Source: a virus. From it: a stretch of 22,059 bases of DNA. Location: positions 1 through 22,059 of IMG/VR virus record IMGVR_UViG_3300045286_000009; one strand, given 5' to 3'. Shown in pieces: positions 2,270 through 14,916 of this stretch. Position 1 is the first letter of the stretch. The number at the start of each line of letters is the position of its first letter. The notes under the pieces were generated by a model. The model ran no database searches, had not been told where the DNA came from, and worked only from the letters and a program-made list of their open reading frames with translations. Both the position numbers and the translations under genes were made by a program.

Positions 2270-2551
2270 TTACTCCGCGAATTCCAGCGTGTACTCGAAG
2301 TTCAGCGACGCGGTGCCCGACTGGCTTATGGCATCGAGGTTGCCGTTGGCGCCGCCGCCGGCTTCCAGCGCGATGGCCGAGTCCGCATCGCGGGCCACCC
2401 AGCCACCGGGACCGGCCGCGCCGCAACCGACAGACTGCTGCACGGTCTGCGTGGTGCCGACAGTCGGTCCGGTGAACGCCGTCAGCTGCGCCGCAGGGTT
2501 GCTCGGAGCCTTGCCGCGGGGCGTGATCGAAGAGCCCGCCGTCGAAGCGGT
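2270..2551 (-). other. In-frame 93-codon continuation after the amber stop, without a usable start
   Basis: Reading on from the TAG at 2554-2552 in the same phase gives T-A-S-T-A-G-S-S-I-T-P-R-G and later GCGAAGPGGWVARDADSAI, LEAGGGANGNLDAISQ and ASLNFEYTLEFAE before a TAA. The composition is that of a structural phage beta-domain, with no stops and normal codon use for this phage. It contains no methionine codon; the first GTG is about 36 codons in and has no obvious Shine-Dalgarno sequence, so the segment could reach the ribosome only by reading through the amber codon. The next gene starts 2 bases after its TAA, which is how real gene ends look in this operon. I therefore treat it as coding sequence of the same gene as the 63-codon part upstream. 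Confidence 0.62.
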
Positions 2552-2743
2552 CTAATAGCGCGCCAGGCGCACGACGATGCCGCTGATGGCGGTGAGGCCG
2601 GCGCCCTTGCCGATGAGGAACAGGCCCGTCACCGCGGCGCCGCGGGTCGAGCCGCTCAGGGTGCGCAGGTGGTCGGTGTCGGTGTTCGGCGTGGCATTGG
2701 TCGACACGTTGGCCGCGGGGCTGATGGCGTACACGAAAGGCAT
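2552..2743 (-). CDS. N-terminal part of a tail structural protein ending at an amber codon (63 aa)
   Basis: The reading frame starts MPFVYAISPAANVSTNATP and runs through DTDHLRTLSGSTRG and GKGAGLTAISGIVVRLARY to a TAG at 2554-2552. AGGA about 7 bases upstream of the ATG at 2743 is a good ribosome binding site. The TAG lies in the middle of an uninterrupted frame: codons continue in phase for 93 more residues to a TAA at 2272-2270 (see the next entry). The 63-residue product ends abruptly after a beta-like strand, so it looks like half a protein. Position between a zinc-ribbon protein and the concanavalin-like tail protein suggests a tail-tip component. Either this is a genuine short product with readthrough, or an amber mutation or sequencing error has split a 157-codon gene. 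Confidence 0.68.
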   Translation of the reverse strand: MPFVYAISPAANVSTNATPNTDTDHLRTLSGSTRGAAVTGLFLIGKGAGLTAISGIVVRLARY

Positions 2744-2752
2744 GTTTGGTTC

Positions 2753-3091
2753 CTAGCGCCCCAGGGTTAGGAGCTTGGCAAGAGGCGAGGCGCCCTCTTC
2801 CAAGATGATGTTGATCTGCTGCTCGGTGACTTGCGGACCGCACTCTTCGAGCAGCGCTTCTCGGCAACGCTGCCATTGCACCTCGTCGGGAACCAGCATC
2901 GTTCCGGCGATCTGTCCGTAGGTGCCAACGCAGTTGTTGCACAGGTAGAACATGTGCGTGCTGTTCTCGTGCGTCCAGCCGCCATCCTTGCCGCAGTTGG
3001 CGCAGAAAACGGGGACCCAGGCGCCGTTGGACGTGAACACCTGTCCACGCGCTACCTTGGCTCGGCTGTCTGGGAGGATGTCGGCGGTCAA
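2753..3091 (-). CDS. Small zinc-ribbon protein in the tail region (112 aa)
   Basis: Two CxxC pairs, CANC and CNNC, are separated by 17 residues at about positions 31 to 53 (VFCANCGKDGGW ... FYLCNNCVG), the arrangement of a structural zinc ribbon. The C-terminal half is helical and acidic (VPDEVQWQRCREALLEECG, QQINIILEEGASPLAKLL). The only start near the previous gene's end is a TTG at 3091 that shares bases with the upstream TGA (TTGA), the same junction as at 20774; a later GTG at VFTSNG is possible. A zinc ribbon among beta-rich tail structural genes is unusual. It could be a tail chaperone, a host-takeover protein or a minor virion protein; the sequence does not decide. The TAG stop is at 2755-2753. 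Confidence 0.6.
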   Translation of the reverse strand: MTADILPDSRAKVARGQVFTSNGAWVPVFCANCGKDGGWTHENSTHMFYLCNNCVGTYGQIAGTMLVPDEVQWQRCREALLEECGPQVTEQQINIILEEGASPLAKLLTLGR

Positions 3092-3513: not shown

Positions 3514-5640
3514 TCAGGCTCCGAAGGAAAGGGCGCACGCAGCCGCAGCGCGCACGAGTTCAGCGTCCGATAGGTCGGCCTGCATCTCGCGCTTGATGCG
3601 TTCGATGGCGTCGGCCAGTGTGATGGGCTTGTCCATGCCAGGAAGCAGCACCGGCATGTCGGGCTTGGTGGCGGCGATCTGCTGCAGCCGCGCCTGGTCC
3701 GGTGACAGCTTTTCGGCCTCCGGCGCCGGCAGCCCCTGGCGCACGCGGTCGATGGCGTCTGCCAGCGCGTCGCCCGGCTTCATCGACGGCACGTTGCGCG
3801 CGATGTCCTCGGCGTGGGCCGCGATGTCGCCCAGCTTCTTGGCGCTGCCGCCCATCTCTTCGACGGCTGCCAGCGCGTTGTGCATCAGCTGGGTCATGGT
3901 GCCGCCCGCGTTCATCTCGGCGGCCACTTGCCCGGGTTCCTTGCCCTTGATGAGTTCGGCCGCTTGGTCGAGCGCGGCGCGGTACTCGCTGGGTTTGGGT
4001 TCTGGGGCCAACACCGCAGTTGGCTTGGCATCGCGCGCGGCGGCGGTGTCGACCTCCCTGGGAAGAGCGTTGCTGCTTTCACGCGTTACAGAAGAACGCT
4101 GATCGGCAGACCCTCGTTGCACCGCCGAAAGGCGCTCTTGGCGCAAGACTTGGAGTTGCTTCTCCAGTTCTCCAGCCCTTTGCGTCTGTTTTTGTGCTTC
4201 TGCGTTTGCTTCTATGAATTGGTTTAGACGGTCGCTTTGCGCTTGCCAGTCTGCATCGCGGTCAGCGTTTCTCTTACGCGCCTCAGCCAATGCTTCTTTG
4301 TAGCTGAGGCGAGAGCGTCCTTGAATGTCTTTTGCTTCTGCTCGAATAGCCGTGTCCGACGTGTCAACGCGCGTCTGCTCCATCAGGCGAAGCTGTTCGC
4401 GCGCTTGTCGAATTGCGCCTCGTTCTGCCAAGCCATCGGCAGCTGGGATGGTGGCCGATAGCTCGTCTTCAAGCGATTTGATCTGTGCATCAATCAAAGA
4501 GGTGTCAGCAACAGCGCGCCCTTCTGCTACGGCATCCGATGCCTCCTTCAGCACCGCCAGCGCCGCCGGGTCATCCGGCAGGCTCTTGGCAACGGTCCGG
4601 TCCAGCAGCGCCACGCGCGCGGCGTCGGCGACCTCGGGGCTCTGGGCTGCGGCCGACACCGGAGCCTTGCGCGCCGCCGCCTCTTGCTTGTCAAGCTCGG
4701 CCTGCAGCGCCGCCTTGTCCTCGGGCCGCTTGGCCTTGTCGATCTCGGCGCGCAGTTCGGCCAGGTTGCCGGCGCTGCGCTCGAACGAATCGCTGCTGGC
4801 CTGCTCTGCCGGCGTCAGCGCCGCCGCGGCCTTGATGTCGGCCTCGGTCTTGAACCTGCGTGCCGCTGCCGCCTCCTTGGCTGCCCGGCGCAGGCCCATG
4901 GCGCCGAAGCCAGCCGGCACCAGCGTCGAGACCGCCAGCCCCACCGGGTCCAGCGGATCGTGCAGCGCAGCCTCGGCGCCGTAGTCGGCGTTCTGCAGGA
5001 TCTCCTTCGAGAGCTGCTCCTGCGCCATGAACGACAGCGGGCCGCCGACAGCGATCAGGCCGGCGGTGTGCGCCAGGGTCGAGCCGGCAAGTGGCATCAC
5101 GGCGCCGAGGCCTGCGAACAGGCCCTGCGACTCGCCGACCAGCGTGGCCGTTGCGGGGTCGACGCCCTTCTGGATCAGCCGCTGCGCCGCCGAGTTCGAT
5201 TCGTCAGCCGCCAGCAAGGCAGCGCCCACCGGGCCGCCGAACAGTCCGACCTCGGTCACGGCCTTTGTGGCGAAGCGGGTCAGCCCCGACAGCATCAGCT
5301 CGGACATGTGCGCCGTGTGCGGGTCCGGCATCATGTCGTCGGCCTTCTTGCGCAGCACGTTGCCGGCCGCGGTGTCGAAGGTGTCGCCCTTGCGCATGCG
5401 CGCCGCCGCGGCGTCCGAATCGGCGCCGGTGCCGAAGCTGGCAGCGCTCACGGTGCCGTAGCTGGACAGAAAGTCCGCCAAGCTGCCGGCCATGTCCACG
5501 GCACCGGAGCCGATGCCCTGGAAACCGGACTTGCCGAACGACCAGGCCGAGAACGACGACTCCGGCGCCGGGGCCGGCTTCATCATCGACTGCAGCTGGC
5601 TGCGCTCGATGCTGTCGGCGTAGGTGTCAAGGATGCCCAC
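3514..5640 (-). CDS. Large internal virion / DNA-ejection protein (708 aa)
   Basis: By position (third and largest of three ejection-type genes after the tail tube genes) and composition, this is the analogue of T7 gp16 or other podovirus ejection proteins that form the channel for DNA entry. The N-terminal 130 residues are mixed. Three Gly/Ala-rich hydrophobic stretches follow at about 128-145, 172-204 and 232-250, suited to membrane association. From about residue 255 onward it is highly charged, Ala-rich and helical (coiled-coil-like). The start is a GTG at 5640 sharing its G with the previous TAG, preceded by AAGGTG; the longer frame from 5757 would lie in the upstream gene. The part coding residues about 374-525 has much lower GC than the rest (see findings). 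No lysozyme catalytic motif is evident. Confidence 0.75.
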   Translation of the reverse strand: MGILDTYADSIERSQLQSMMKPAPAPESSFSAWSFGKSGFQGIGSGAVDMAGSLADFLSSYGTVSAASFGTGADSDAAAARMRKGDTFDTAAGNVLRKKADDMMPDPHTAHMSELMLSGLTRFATKAVTEVGLFGGPVGAALLAADESNSAAQRLIQKGVDPATATLVGESQGLFAGLGAVMPLAGSTLAHTAGLIAVGGPLSFMAQEQLSKEILQNADYGAEAALHDPLDPVGLAVSTLVPAGFGAMGLRRAAKEAAAARRFKTEADIKAAAALTPAEQASSDSFERSAGNLAELRAEIDKAKRPEDKAALQAELDKQEAAARKAPVSAAAQSPEVADAARVALLDRTVAKSLPDDPAALAVLKEASDAVAEGRAVADTSLIDAQIKSLEDELSATIPAADGLAERGAIRQAREQLRLMEQTRVDTSDTAIRAEAKDIQGRSRLSYKEALAEARKRNADRDADWQAQSDRLNQFIEANAEAQKQTQRAGELEKQLQVLRQERLSAVQRGSADQRSSVTRESSNALPREVDTAAARDAKPTAVLAPEPKPSEYRAALDQAAELIKGKEPGQVAAEMNAGGTMTQLMHNALAAVEEMGGSAKKLGDIAAHAEDIARNVPSMKPGDALADAIDRVRQGLPAPEAEKLSPDQARLQQIAATKPDMPVLLPGMDKPITLADAIERIKREMQADLSDAELVRAAAACALSFGA

Positions 5641-8561: not shown

Positions 8562-11234
8562 TCATCCCTTGTCGTAGGTCGTGACCTGCGGCATCACCGC
8601 GACGATGGTGCAAGGCAGCGGCTGCGGCTGCTCGAAGCACAGCCACGGCGTCAGGCTGAAGTCGCCCGGGAAGTCCAGCACCTTGTCGCCCGTGAACAGC
8701 GGCGGCGGGTTGTCCATGCTGTCCAGTGCGCTGCGGAAATTGACATCCAGCAGGTCGTCGAAGCTGGAGCCGTAGGACAGGCCCAGCGTCTGGTCCAGGC
8801 GCACGGTCACGGCGTTGATGTGCGCCTTCTTGCCCTGGCTCGTGCCATCGGAGCCGCCAGCGTTCATCCGCTGGGTCTGCAGCTGGCTTCGATACGGCAT
8901 TCCGACCTGGGCCTTGCTGACCGGGTATTGCAGCGTGATCGTGCCGCCTGAGACCACGCAGTCGGGGTGCGCGGCACCGTCGGCCAGCACCGAGACCGTC
9001 TGCCCCTCCAGGAAGGACAGGCTGCCGATGGTGGTGGCCGTGAGGCGCCAGCCATAGGCCGCAATCGTGGACAGACTCGGGAACGCGGACTCGATGGTGC
9101 AGACCACGTGCGAAGCGTCCAGGAAAGCCGTGATGGTGGCCTTTGCACTGGCGTAGGTGACGTTCCCATCTTCGTCTGTCGTGCTGTGGCGATAGACGAT
9201 CTGCCGACCAACGTGGCCAGATGAAAACGGCGTCGCTTCGCTGGTGAAGGACACGCCGGTCGTGCCGTCCACGTCGGCACCGGCGCCTGGCTTCAGGTTG
9301 GCCGAGTTGGAGCCGTCGTAGGTGGACCCGAAGTCGACATAGAAGTCATCCTGCGGGTCGTAGTTCTGCCGGTGCTCCCATTCCATGTACGCGATGTAGC
9401 GCTTCGTCGAGCCGTTGATCGTGAACTTGGCGATGGCCCAGAGTTCGTCGCGGCTGCCATCGGGTGCGGGCAGGTCGGCGATGCACTCGACCACGCCGCC
9501 GCCGCCGATGGGGTGCCGGTGCCAGCCGCCGTGCGGGCCGTCCGGGTAGTGCTCGCGGCTGTAGGTCATGGCCACCAGCACGCCGTCGGTGCGAACGCCC
9601 CAGATGATCGAATGCGGTTCGTGCTGGTAGGCCAGTTGCGTGATGCCGGCCTGCACCATGTGCGAAGCCAGAACCGACTGGTCGAACGATGCGTAGTCGT
9701 CGTTCTGGAAGTTGTAGGTGATGTCGCGCAGCTTGGCCGCAGCGCGCTGCACGAACAGCAGCACGCCGTTCACGCGAACGGGGATGGTGTTGCGCGAGCC
9801 CACGCGGCTGATCTCTACCGCGGTGTGGTTGTCGGTGCCGTAGGGCTGGTTCTCCGTCATCGACTTGATGGCGAACTCAGAGCCCGCGGTGCCGCACACC
9901 AGGGAGTCGACGCCGGTCGTGGTGACTTCCATCCACTGGATGGAGTTGACGCGGTTTGACAGCAGTTGGTCGCTGATGGCCATGTCGGTCGTCACCAGCG
10001 AACTCGAATCCTTGGCGGTGAAGGTCTCGTAGTCGCCTGCCACCGACTGCCAGACGCGGGTGCCGCGCGCGAAGCACAGCCGCTCGCGGAAGAAGGCCAC
10101 GTTCGTCGGCCAGCCCTCGACGTCGGACCACGCAGCCAGCGCCCAGCGCGTTGTGGCGTTGCCGGATCCCACGGCGTTGGCCGGCAGCTCGGCTGCGGTG
10201 TTGGAGGGGAACGGGCTTTCCACCGTGCCGCTGACGTGCGTGCTGTCGGTGTACGCGGTGATGCGCACGCCGCCGAAGCCGCTGTCGGTGTAGCGCCACT
10301 GCACGCCGGTGCCGGCGACGTTGCTGCCGTCGTAGACAGAACCCTTGGTGTGCGTCGGCGGGTTCGTGCCGCTGGTGGCCGCGTTCACGGCCTTGTAGTT
10401 CTTGCCGTCGCTGTGCACCACGTCGCCGATGCTGAACGCCTTGCCGGCTTCCCAGGCCGGCACCGACAGCACGTCCTTCTGCGAGAGTTGCAGCAGCGAG
10501 CCGACCATGCCGGAAGTGAACACCGCGGCCGAAGCCGTGACCGTGACAGCGCCCGTTGCCGCATCGGCGTAGAGCGTGGTCGTCGTGATGTTCTCGGCCT
10601 TGAACGGGCCACCGGAGAACGTGGGCGTCGACAGCACCCACTTCGTATTGCTGTAGCGCGACAGCTTGCGCGGGGCGTAGCTGCCGTGCGCGATGTAGAT
10701 GACGTCGTTCTCGATGGCGAACCGCAGCGCAAAGGTGCCGTCACTGGTCAGCAGGTCGGATGCGCTGTAGGGCGTCGGCAACTCAAGCACGGTGCCCGTG
10801 AGCGGATACCAGTACGTCGCATTCGGCGGCGCGTTGCCGGTGGTGTTGGCCACGCAGTAGTAGAAGGCCGACACGCCATCCCACACCAAGTCGCCGATGG
10901 TGTAAGCCGTGGCGCCGTTGTAGATGCTGGCCGATGTGGCCTGGATCTGCCCGTGGTTGGTCCAGAAGCGCAGGTACTTGTCGCCGAACTCCAGCATGTA
11001 GCCCGTCGTGGAGTCGCGCTCGTACCGGACCAGCCAAGTGCGCTTGCTGCTGTCCTTGACTTCGCCCAGGTAGCGGAACCCGGCGCGTCGCATGGCCGGG
11101 CCTTGCACCAGCGGCAGGAAGCCGACCATGCGCCGGCAGGCGGCCGGGTACTTCGCCAGATCGACGCGACCCTCCATCCGCGGCGACCATTCGCCAGCGT
11201 TGAAGGAGGTCTGGATCGGCGAGGCGCGCGCCAT
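8562..11234 (-). CDS. Tail tubular protein B / tail nozzle, T7 gp12-like (890 aa)
   Basis: The N-terminus SFNAGEWSPRMEGRVDL followed by LAKYPAACRRMVGFLPLVQGPAMRRAGFRYLGEV is the conserved opening of podovirus tail tubular protein B (T7 gp12, P22 gp10-like stabilisation proteins). The rest is a long beta-rich protein with Trp, Tyr and Gly, including a signature-like HPIGGGGVVECIADLPAPDG region near residue 550 and NAVTVRLDQTLGLSYGS near the end. It forms the distal nozzle of the short tail below the gp11-like adaptor. The ATG at 11234 follows the upstream TAG by 2 bases with GAGG about 8 bases before it. Length is within the family's range. Confidence 0.88.
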   Translation of the reverse strand: MARASPIQTSFNAGEWSPRMEGRVDLAKYPAACRRMVGFLPLVQGPAMRRAGFRYLGEVKDSSKRTWLVRYERDSTTGYMLEFGDKYLRFWTNHGQIQATSASIYNGATAYTIGDLVWDGVSAFYYCVANTTGNAPPNATYWYPLTGTVLELPTPYSASDLLTSDGTFALRFAIENDVIYIAHGSYAPRKLSRYSNTKWVLSTPTFSGGPFKAENITTTTLYADAATGAVTVTASAAVFTSGMVGSLLQLSQKDVLSVPAWEAGKAFSIGDVVHSDGKNYKAVNAATSGTNPPTHTKGSVYDGSNVAGTGVQWRYTDSGFGGVRITAYTDSTHVSGTVESPFPSNTAAELPANAVGSGNATTRWALAAWSDVEGWPTNVAFFRERLCFARGTRVWQSVAGDYETFTAKDSSSLVTTDMAISDQLLSNRVNSIQWMEVTTTGVDSLVCGTAGSEFAIKSMTENQPYGTDNHTAVEISRVGSRNTIPVRVNGVLLFVQRAAAKLRDITYNFQNDDYASFDQSVLASHMVQAGITQLAYQHEPHSIIWGVRTDGVLVAMTYSREHYPDGPHGGWHRHPIGGGGVVECIADLPAPDGSRDELWAIAKFTINGSTKRYIAYMEWEHRQNYDPQDDFYVDFGSTYDGSNSANLKPGAGADVDGTTGVSFTSEATPFSSGHVGRQIVYRHSTTDEDGNVTYASAKATITAFLDASHVVCTIESAFPSLSTIAAYGWRLTATTIGSLSFLEGQTVSVLADGAAHPDCVVSGGTITLQYPVSKAQVGMPYRSQLQTQRMNAGGSDGTSQGKKAHINAVTVRLDQTLGLSYGSSFDDLLDVNFRSALDSMDNPPPLFTGDKVLDFPGDFSLTPWLCFEQPQPLPCTIVAVMPQVTTYDKG

Positions 11235-11236
11235 GG

Positions 11237-11854
11237 CTACAGCCTCGCGATGACCCAGCTGTCGTCCGCGAAGGGTTGCGGCGGCTTCTCGATGGCGTTG
11301 GCGGCCAGGCCTTCACGCACGGACATCATGTAGTCCTGCTGGCAGGCCTGCTTCTTCGTGTTGCTGTTGGTGATCTGCTCGCATGCCTCGAACGCCAGCC
11401 GCGCGGCGAACGACATCACGAACAGCGGATCGAACTGCCCTTCGTCGGTTACGTCGTAGACGTAGCGCAGCTTCAGCGGAGCGGTGAAGTCGGTGACGAT
11501 GCAGCGCACGCCGTCGACCACTTCGAACGCGAACGCCGAGGCGTCCTGGCTGGTGTAGTCCGACAGCGAAGGGACCACGAAGTAGTCCGACACCTGCACC
11601 GCGCGCAGGAAGTCGGCCGGCAGCGGGAAAGCATTGCCGTAACCCCAGGCCGGCGCGGTGGCCGAAGCCGCCAGGCTGGTGCGCACGATGGAGAACGACC
11701 AGTGCCGGCGGCGCAGTTCGGCCTGCCGTACCGGGTCGTACAGGCGGTTCATCGCCCGCGCGGCCACCGAGTTGTCGGTGAGCGACGTCAATTTCTCGTT
11801 CGAGCCCAGCTTCGTTAGGGCCAGGTTCGCAATGTCGACCTTCGAGGTCGGCAC
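11237..11854 (-). CDS. Tail tubular protein A / adaptor, T7 gp11-like (205 aa)
   Basis: Typical gp11 features are visible: VDIANLALTKLGSNEKLTSLTDNS at the start, a helix with AMNRLYDPVRQAELRRRHWSFS, then APAWGYGNAFPLPADFLRAV and a C-terminal helix (MSFAARLAFEACEQIT). In podoviruses this protein forms the dodecameric adaptor between portal and nozzle. The start is a GTG at 11854, 4 bases after the preceding TGA, with GAAGG about 9 bases upstream; an ATG nearby is out of frame. The stop is TAG, with the nozzle gene following 2 bases later. Confidence 0.87.
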   Translation of the reverse strand: MPTSKVDIANLALTKLGSNEKLTSLTDNSVAARAMNRLYDPVRQAELRRRHWSFSIVRTSLAASATAPAWGYGNAFPLPADFLRAVQVSDYFVVPSLSDYTSQDASAFAFEVVDGVRCIVTDFTAPLKLRYVYDVTDEGQFDPLFVMSFAARLAFEACEQITNSNTKKQACQQDYMMSVREGLAANAIEKPPQPFADDSWVIARL

Positions 11855-12728: not shown

Positions 12729-13619
12729 TCAGGCGCAGGGCAGTTCGACGACCTTCTTCTCTTCGAGGCGGGTGCCACCGAAGGTGCCGTACAGGTAGAC
12801 CTGCCACGGCAGACCGGCCAGGTCCTTGCGCTGCGAGACGTCGGCGCTGATGTCCTGCCACATGCCGAGGTGCATGCCAGCCTTGACGTACATCGGGCAG
12901 CGGGTCTGGCTGGAGCCGTTGGTGGCCAGGCGCTCCGAGTGGATGAAGTCCACCTTGCCCCACTGCATGACGAAGCCGTCGTTCACGACCGCCTTCTCGC
13001 CGTTGTAGTCCGCATTGATGACCTGCACTTCGTCCATCAGGTTGCGGTTCTGCTTGGCGGTGATGGCGCAGCTGATGCGGTCGCCGCTCGACGGGTCCCA
13101 GGCTTCGTTGGCCAGCAGGATCTGGATGCCGGCCTTCAGCTTCTCGACGTTCAGGCCGGTCGCCGCGCTGGCGCCTTCCGAGGCCGAGACTTGCTGGCCC
13201 GACGGGAAGTTGGTGGTGGTGCTGCCGTCGGCGCCGGTCTTGGCTGCGCCGAAGAAGGCCGCGATGATCTCGTCGTCCATCGCGCGGTTCATGGCCGCGG
13301 TGCCGTTCTGCACGTAGCTCGACTGCGGGTCGATCAGCATGCGCAGCTTGTCGATGCCGTCGATCAGGTCGTTCCAGTCGTAGTCCGACGGGAAGACCCA
13401 GCGGCGGTCGGTCTGCGTGTCGATGGGGGTCAGCGCCGGGTAGCGCGTGGTGCGCTTCTGCGCCACGGTCGGGGCGAACTGGTCGACGGGCACGCCCTGC
13501 TTGCCGGTGTAGGTCTGGGTCGTGACCGACATCCGCAGGCGCGAGGCTTTCTGTTGCGACAGCAGCGCGACGTTGGTCGTGTACTGCTGCACGTAGTGGG
13601 TGGTGACAAACTGGCTCAC
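12729..13619 (-). CDS. Major capsid protein (296 aa)
   Basis: The protein starts MSQFVTTHYVQQYTTNVALL and contains QDRRWVFPSD-like and RAMDDEIIAAFFGAAKTG segments (RYPALTPIDTQTDRRWVFPSD near residues 60-80; the AAFFG helix near 117), then Gly/Asn-rich loops and VDFIHSERLATNG near the end. This pattern belongs to the capsid family of BPP-1-like podoviruses, whose capsid shell has an HK97-like fold with an altered topology (established for BPP-1). The start is a GTG at 13619 with AGGAG about 9 bases upstream; an ORF in another frame covering the same stretch is Arg/His-rich and spurious. The gene lies between scaffold and decoration genes and has its own structured leader. Confidence 0.87.
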   Translation of the reverse strand: MSQFVTTHYVQQYTTNVALLSQQKASRLRMSVTTQTYTGKQGVPVDQFAPTVAQKRTTRYPALTPIDTQTDRRWVFPSDYDWNDLIDGIDKLRMLIDPQSSYVQNGTAAMNRAMDDEIIAAFFGAAKTGADGSTTTNFPSGQQVSASEGASAATGLNVEKLKAGIQILLANEAWDPSSGDRISCAITAKQNRNLMDEVQVINADYNGEKAVVNDGFVMQWGKVDFIHSERLATNGSSQTRCPMYVKAGMHLGMWQDISADVSQRKDLAGLPWQVYLYGTFGGTRLEEKKVVELPCA

Positions 13620-13973: not shown

Positions 13974-14916
13974 CCCCGGCGGCGATGGCTTGCAGCTTGG
14001 TCATCTCGTCCAGCTTGGCCTTGTCGCCGGCCAGGTACTCGCGGGTCCAGTTCGGGTCCGCGCGCAGTTGGGCGATCTTCTGCGCCGCACCCTGGGCCGA
14101 GGTACCCATGCCGGGCGCGTCGCCGCCGCTGCGCACGGTGTCTTCAGCCATGCCCATGCCGGCCTTGGCGAACATGCGCACCAGCGCGCCGGTCGCGCCC
14201 GTGCGGTTGAACAGGGTGCGCAGGAAGTCCTCGCGCTTCACCTTGTCGCCGCTGTCGAGCTGGATCTCGTCGGGCAGCACCTGGGCGGCAAAGCGCTTGC
14301 CCAATTCGATGTGCTTGTCTGCCTCCGCGCCCCACTCGGACATGACGCCAGCGAAGGCCTGGTCGCTGGCCGCCACGATCTGCTTCTCGGCCGCCTTGGT
14401 CTGCGCTTCGGAGAAGGCCACGAACTCCTTGGTCAGCGCCTCGGCCACGCGCGGGGTGGCGCCGGCCTTGTGCATCCACTGCTGCATGGTCTTCACCAGC
14501 TCGGGGTCGGAGTTCTCCGGCACCGGCAGCTTGTAGCCGTCGGGCGTGGCCGGAACCCCAAGCTTGGCGTGGAACTGCGCCAGTTCTTCCGGGCTGGCAT
14601 CGTCCTTGGGCAGCACCAGCGTACGGCCGGCGCGGTCGAAGCCGATCAGCTTTTCGAGGTTGTAGGCCGATTCGGTCGCGGCCAGCGGGTCCTTGAACCC
14701 CTTGGCCTGCGCCCAGGTCTTGACGTCCGGCGACTGGATCTGGTCGAACCACTGGCCTTCGTTGCTGGCCTGCGCTGCTGGCGCTGGGGCTGGCGCGGCG
14801 CCCAGCGCGGTGGCCGCTGCTGCGGCAACGGCAGGGGCACCCGAAGTGGCAGCAGGGGCTGCAGGGGCGGCGGTGGGTGCTGCGCCCGTGAAGGCGGCAG
14901 CGGCGGCGCTACTCAT
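13966..14916 (-). CDS. Capsid scaffolding protein (316 aa)
   Basis: The first 50 residues are an Ala/Pro-rich disordered segment. The remainder is charged and helical, with EGQWFDQIQSPDVKTWAQAKG and ATPDGYKLPVPENSDPELV, a motif string found in phage scaffold-type proteins, and a long C-terminal helical region (TREYLAGDKAKLDEMTKLQ). The protein would chaperone assembly of the capsid shell and leave before DNA packaging. I chose the ATG at 14916 because GAGAGG lies about 9 bases upstream; an ATG at 14925 would abut that ribosome binding site with no spacing. The gene overlaps the end of the Bbp19-like gene by 8 bases and lies two genes before the capsid gene, the usual position. Confidence 0.82.
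   Translation of the reverse strand: MSSAAAAAFTGAAPTAAPAAPAATSGAPAVAAAAATALGAAPAPAPAAQASNEGQWFDQIQSPDVKTWAQAKGFKDPLAATESAYNLEKLIGFDRAGRTLVLPKDDASPEELAQFHAKLGVPATPDGYKLPVPENSDPELVKTMQQWMHKAGATPRVAEALTKEFVAFSEAQTKAAEKQIVAASDQAFAGVMSEWGAEADKHIELGKRFAAQVLPDEIQLDSGDKVKREDFLRTLFNRTGATGALVRMFAKAGMGMAEDTVRSGGDAPGMGTSAQGAAQKIAQLRADPNWTREYLAGDKAKLDEMTKLQAIAAGVA

Follow-up and report, generated by a model that had tools for sequence, protein, structure and literature searches.

An amber codon inside a conserved beta-sandwich gene of a metagenomic phage contig, very probably a recent nonsense change or a base-call error

When we analysed the window (the whole 22,059-nucleotide stretch, i.e., positions 1 to 22,059 of IMG/VR virus record IMGVR_UViG_3300045286_000009) we found that a single in-frame TAG interrupts a minus-strand phage gene which is uninterrupted in every relative recovered, and the explanation that we strongly favor is a recent change of one sense codon to TAG in a seemingly accessory gene, be it a real allele or an error of base calling or consensus. 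The features concerned are the following.

2753 to 3091, minus strand: upstream partner gene of 112 residues, zinc-ribbon-like (CxxC...CxxC), ending in TAG at the natural end of its family
2270 to 2743, minus strand: interrupted gene, a 157-codon frame with TAG at codon 64, with homologs on 53 contigs and an AlphaFold2 model
2555 to 2743, minus strand: the 63-codon part before the TAG, holding 4 of 11 predicted strands
2552 to 2554, minus strand: amber codon (TAG) in frame, where every aligned relative has a sense codon
2270 to 2551, minus strand: the 93-codon part after the TAG, plus TAA, carrying the best-conserved motif of the family, CGAAGPGGWVA

The sequence bears out the split layout of the original prediction: on the minus strand an ATG at 2743 opens 63 codons that end in TAG at 2554-2552, and the same phase then continues for 93 codons, none of them a Met codon, until a TAA at 2272-2270. 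A single base, rather than the two given in that prediction, separates this TAA from the next frame, which has a GTG start at 2268. The TAG of the partner gene lies 9 bases before the ATG at 2743 and shares its frame; the frame from 3091 to 2270 is thus broken by two TAGs only, with the upstream TAG, three codons and the ATG at 2743 all sharing one phase. At the composition of this strand we computed a chance of ~0.11 (~11%) that a 93-codon frame stays open, and longer open frames trail several other genes in the window, so openness alone proves nothing. The split frame is nonetheless real, because the 157-codon frame as a whole has matching proteins on 53 public contigs, the matches running through the TAG site, and read in this way 2743-2270 is one gene. 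Coding signal is present on both sides of the stop: frame-specific codon use favors the 2743-2270 phase on either side, GC3 is 0.95 before the TAG and 0.84 after it, and the mean identity shared with relatives goes from 0.41 before the TAG to 0.47 after it, a ratio that is ordinary for the family. This undecayed coding after the TAG fits a recent, a wrong or a suppressed stop alike and separates none of them.

A query translation in which the TAG was treated as a residue aligned over its full length to viral contigs, and alignment-based searches recovered 38 viral loci and one MAG contig, in none of which did the family gene, read in frame, have an internal stop; complete members of this first set have 156–166 residues. 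Searching with the upstream partner gene alone, which avoids a search bias toward intact frames, we found the family gene after the partner in every one of the 43 new loci whose downstream DNA is long enough, again with no internal stop (two further loci end too early to show it). Together these searches gave 53 distinct public contigs, counted by contig name (52 viral and one MAG), without an internal stop in the family gene, and as they include loci found through the partner, the set was not selected for an open frame. Complete relatives are ~156–170 residues long and align across the TAG site, those in L023 and L026 reaching up to 177 residues, probably since an upstream start was chosen. 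The homolog lengths agree with the roughly 157 residues anticipated for an unbroken protein, and the prediction of a split gene is upheld by a downstream frame that is conserved in these relatives.

Relatives that are intact and carry a sense codon in this place, as expected for a nonsense allele, were found throughout: in all 53 aligned relatives the TAG column holds a sense codon (T in 37, A in 7, G in 4, Q in 2, F in 2 and S in 1). In a maximum-likelihood tree the window falls in a supported clade (98/95) with L096, L008, L010 and L015, and in two of these, L010 and L015, the TAG site is occupied by the Gln codon CAG, from which TAG is one transition away. Judging from these sequences, a change of CAG to TAG would be the simplest path to the stop, although the nearest relatives are distant (~55% identity at best), and the TAG would then be recent. 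No near-identical DNA around the stop was found among viral contigs with two exact patterns, nor in a megablast of the whole window against annotated phages, and a protein search of annotated phages gave no match for the window's protein or for that of L012. With sense codons in all relatives and conserved coding on both sides of the stop, the best fit is a nonsense mutation of recent date or else a sequencing error, both among the options originally raised; the choice between mutation and base-call error hinges on the reads.

AlphaFold2, run on the family alignment, predicted a single beta-sandwich spanning residues 1–157 (pLDDT 91), with the TAG falling just past the fourth of its 11 predicted strands and inside the one domain, and by this model the 63-residue product should not fold. 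Structure comparison returned many jelly-roll-like folds, all with Z of 9 or less: C1q/TNF-like domains, coats of plant viruses, domains of tail fibres and a cement protein of a phage (7dou, Z 8.0) were among them. Uncharacterised phage proteins were matched as well, and none of the matches stood out. The only sequence match among solved structures, to ribosomal L16, was weak and was discarded. For the beta-sandwich family we found no match in NCBIfam, none in PHROG better than an E-value of 0.025, and in Pfam a weak match only (0.003) in 3 of 35 members; PHROG and Pfam gave no convincing family for either the beta-sandwich protein or its zinc-ribbon-like partner. A virion role for the beta-sandwich protein is plausible, even probable, but unproven, and so is the label of tail gene for 2743-2270, with which this analysis began.

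TAG otherwise serves as a terminator in this DNA. The gene ending in TAG at 11237 has a match to phrog_394 that reaches position 189 of 190, and its relatives stop at the same point; relatives of the gene ending at 14909 stop exactly there; and the alignment of the partner gene's family ends at its TAG at 2753. The original prediction had named five such terminators, and for these three the claim holds at the ends of their families, while those at 5640 and 13758 stand without confirmation by homology. With TAG ending three other genes in this way, the prediction that the code is not globally reassigned is supported. Past no other TAG in the window did we find a homologous in-frame extension. 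A tblastn match to L052 that extends beyond the TAG at 11237 was rejected as an extension, L052 having its own stop at the same point; the similarity beyond it is where the next gene starts in another frame, in both the window and L052. Relatives can be aligned over nearly the full lengths of the portal, of the major head protein and of several genes for tail and virion proteins, and the TAG at 2554-2552 is therefore the only lesion that we saw among comparable genes.

Other readings of the split frame were weighed. In programmed readthrough a leaky TAG would yield a main product of 63 residues and, in minor amount, an extended one of 157, much as the original prediction had proposed for a minor extended protein made by context-dependent readthrough, and in its favor both the open frame and its conservation continue beyond the stop, and the TAG is followed by A, which would make a moderately weak context for termination. 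Against this, no member of the family on the 53 contigs has the stop, hence there is no conserved two-product design, and the short product would not be a complete domain with an added extension, the stop lying where strand four of the 11 ends, within one domain and not between domains. Predicted RNA structure following the TAG does not exceed that of shuffled sequences (z 0.24), and the bases following the stop, ACCGCT, do not match CARYYA. As two defining features of programmed readthrough, a conserved stop and a complete short domain, were looked for and neither was seen, and no signal of the kinds examined was seen after the TAG, we consider readthrough very unlikely and find that proposal unsupported. 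A known likeness is to the A1 protein of phage Q-beta, where a stop is likewise followed by in-frame coding that would extend a phage protein; however, in Q-beta a complete coat protein precedes the stop, which is a UGA (PMC8067240), whereas that of the window is a TAG inside one domain and is absent from all relatives found. We found no amber readthrough in a comparable phage protein in the open-access literature. Less credible still is a division into two genes, with the start of the second lying within the extension: a 57-residue frame with a GTG start does exist at 2443, but the extension has no Met codon, no candidate start is preceded by a purine-rich ribosome site, and the relatives are single proteins across the TAG point. 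Alternative internal starts within 2270-2551 were rejected, with no plausible ribosome site seen for any of them, in keeping with the original statement that the extension has no likely internal start.

Amber suppression is the more serious competitor, though we hold it improbable. Here an amber-suppressing tRNA, of the host or encoded by a phage gene outside the fragment, would let enough full-length protein form, and suppression in the host would predict the undecayed coding beyond the TAG just as well. Gln, an amino acid commonly inserted by amber suppressors, occupies the site in relatives of the same clade, and with a fragment of 22 kb a suppressor tRNA could lie elsewhere in the genome. 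On the other side, TAG terminates at least three other genes in the window, no homologous in-frame extension was found past any other TAG there, and there are no tRNA genes in the 22 kb window, an incomplete genome fragment, or in the loci of 11 relatives. Phages using code 15 (TAG to Gln) resemble the window in having a TAG within a phage gene and Gln in some relatives; however, their genomes have TAG inside many genes, with a suppressor tRNA in about half (PMC9523058, PMC11210395), whereas in the window TAG is not avoided as a terminator, ends several genes and is internal in one only. There is a small probability that suppression in the natural host decodes the TAG, in which case the phage would put up with, or make use of, an amber within one virion gene and keep TAG as terminator of others.

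Under the favored reading of a nonsense change or base-call error, 2743-2270 is a single gene encoding a phage protein of roughly 157 residues with a beta-sandwich fold, in which one codon would have turned to TAG recently, whether as a real phage allele or as an error of base call or consensus. As written, translation would halt at residue 63 and leave a partial domain; the gene would be broken in the sequence as it stands, but intact in the actual phage population should the base be an error. The loss could be tolerable, as the two-gene cassette is seemingly accessory; that the change is recent, that the fragment does not fold and that the gene is dispensable we infer. Such an event is ordinary: the window resembles an ordinary amber allele of a phage gene, or a metagenome consensus error, in having one stop in an otherwise intact conserved frame, uninterrupted relatives, and clade members whose codon is one transition from TAG.

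The order of the cassette is the zinc-ribbon-like gene and then the beta-sandwich gene, and the two are paired in 43 of 43 testable loci found via the upstream gene. Phages that carry the beta-sandwich family have head modules unrelated to one another: the window's phage has a phrog_332 connector, while a phrog_10963 portal lies near the family gene in L012 and phrog_324 is found in L014. No copy of the family was found in the phages with the closest portals, L047 and L048 (60%) and L052 (48%), records that may be fragments; L052 is a 38.6 kb record, possibly incomplete, and its lack of a copy alongside a related portal would suit an exchangeable cassette whose loss is tolerated. On this basis the cassette looks accessory. 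Conservation along the virion module is uneven, the major head protein (window 12729-13619) being 80–81% identical to those of L047 and L048 and the portal 60%. In addition, a tail protein (window 8562-11234) matches L052 10049-12247 in two pieces that leave query residues 648–733 uncovered, with a similar pattern in L062.

The significance of this case for decoding is small, as comparison with relatives accounts for a striking split frame in a metagenome contig. A useful by-product is a conserved and undescribed two-gene phage cassette, absent from the family libraries searched, whose role is testable.
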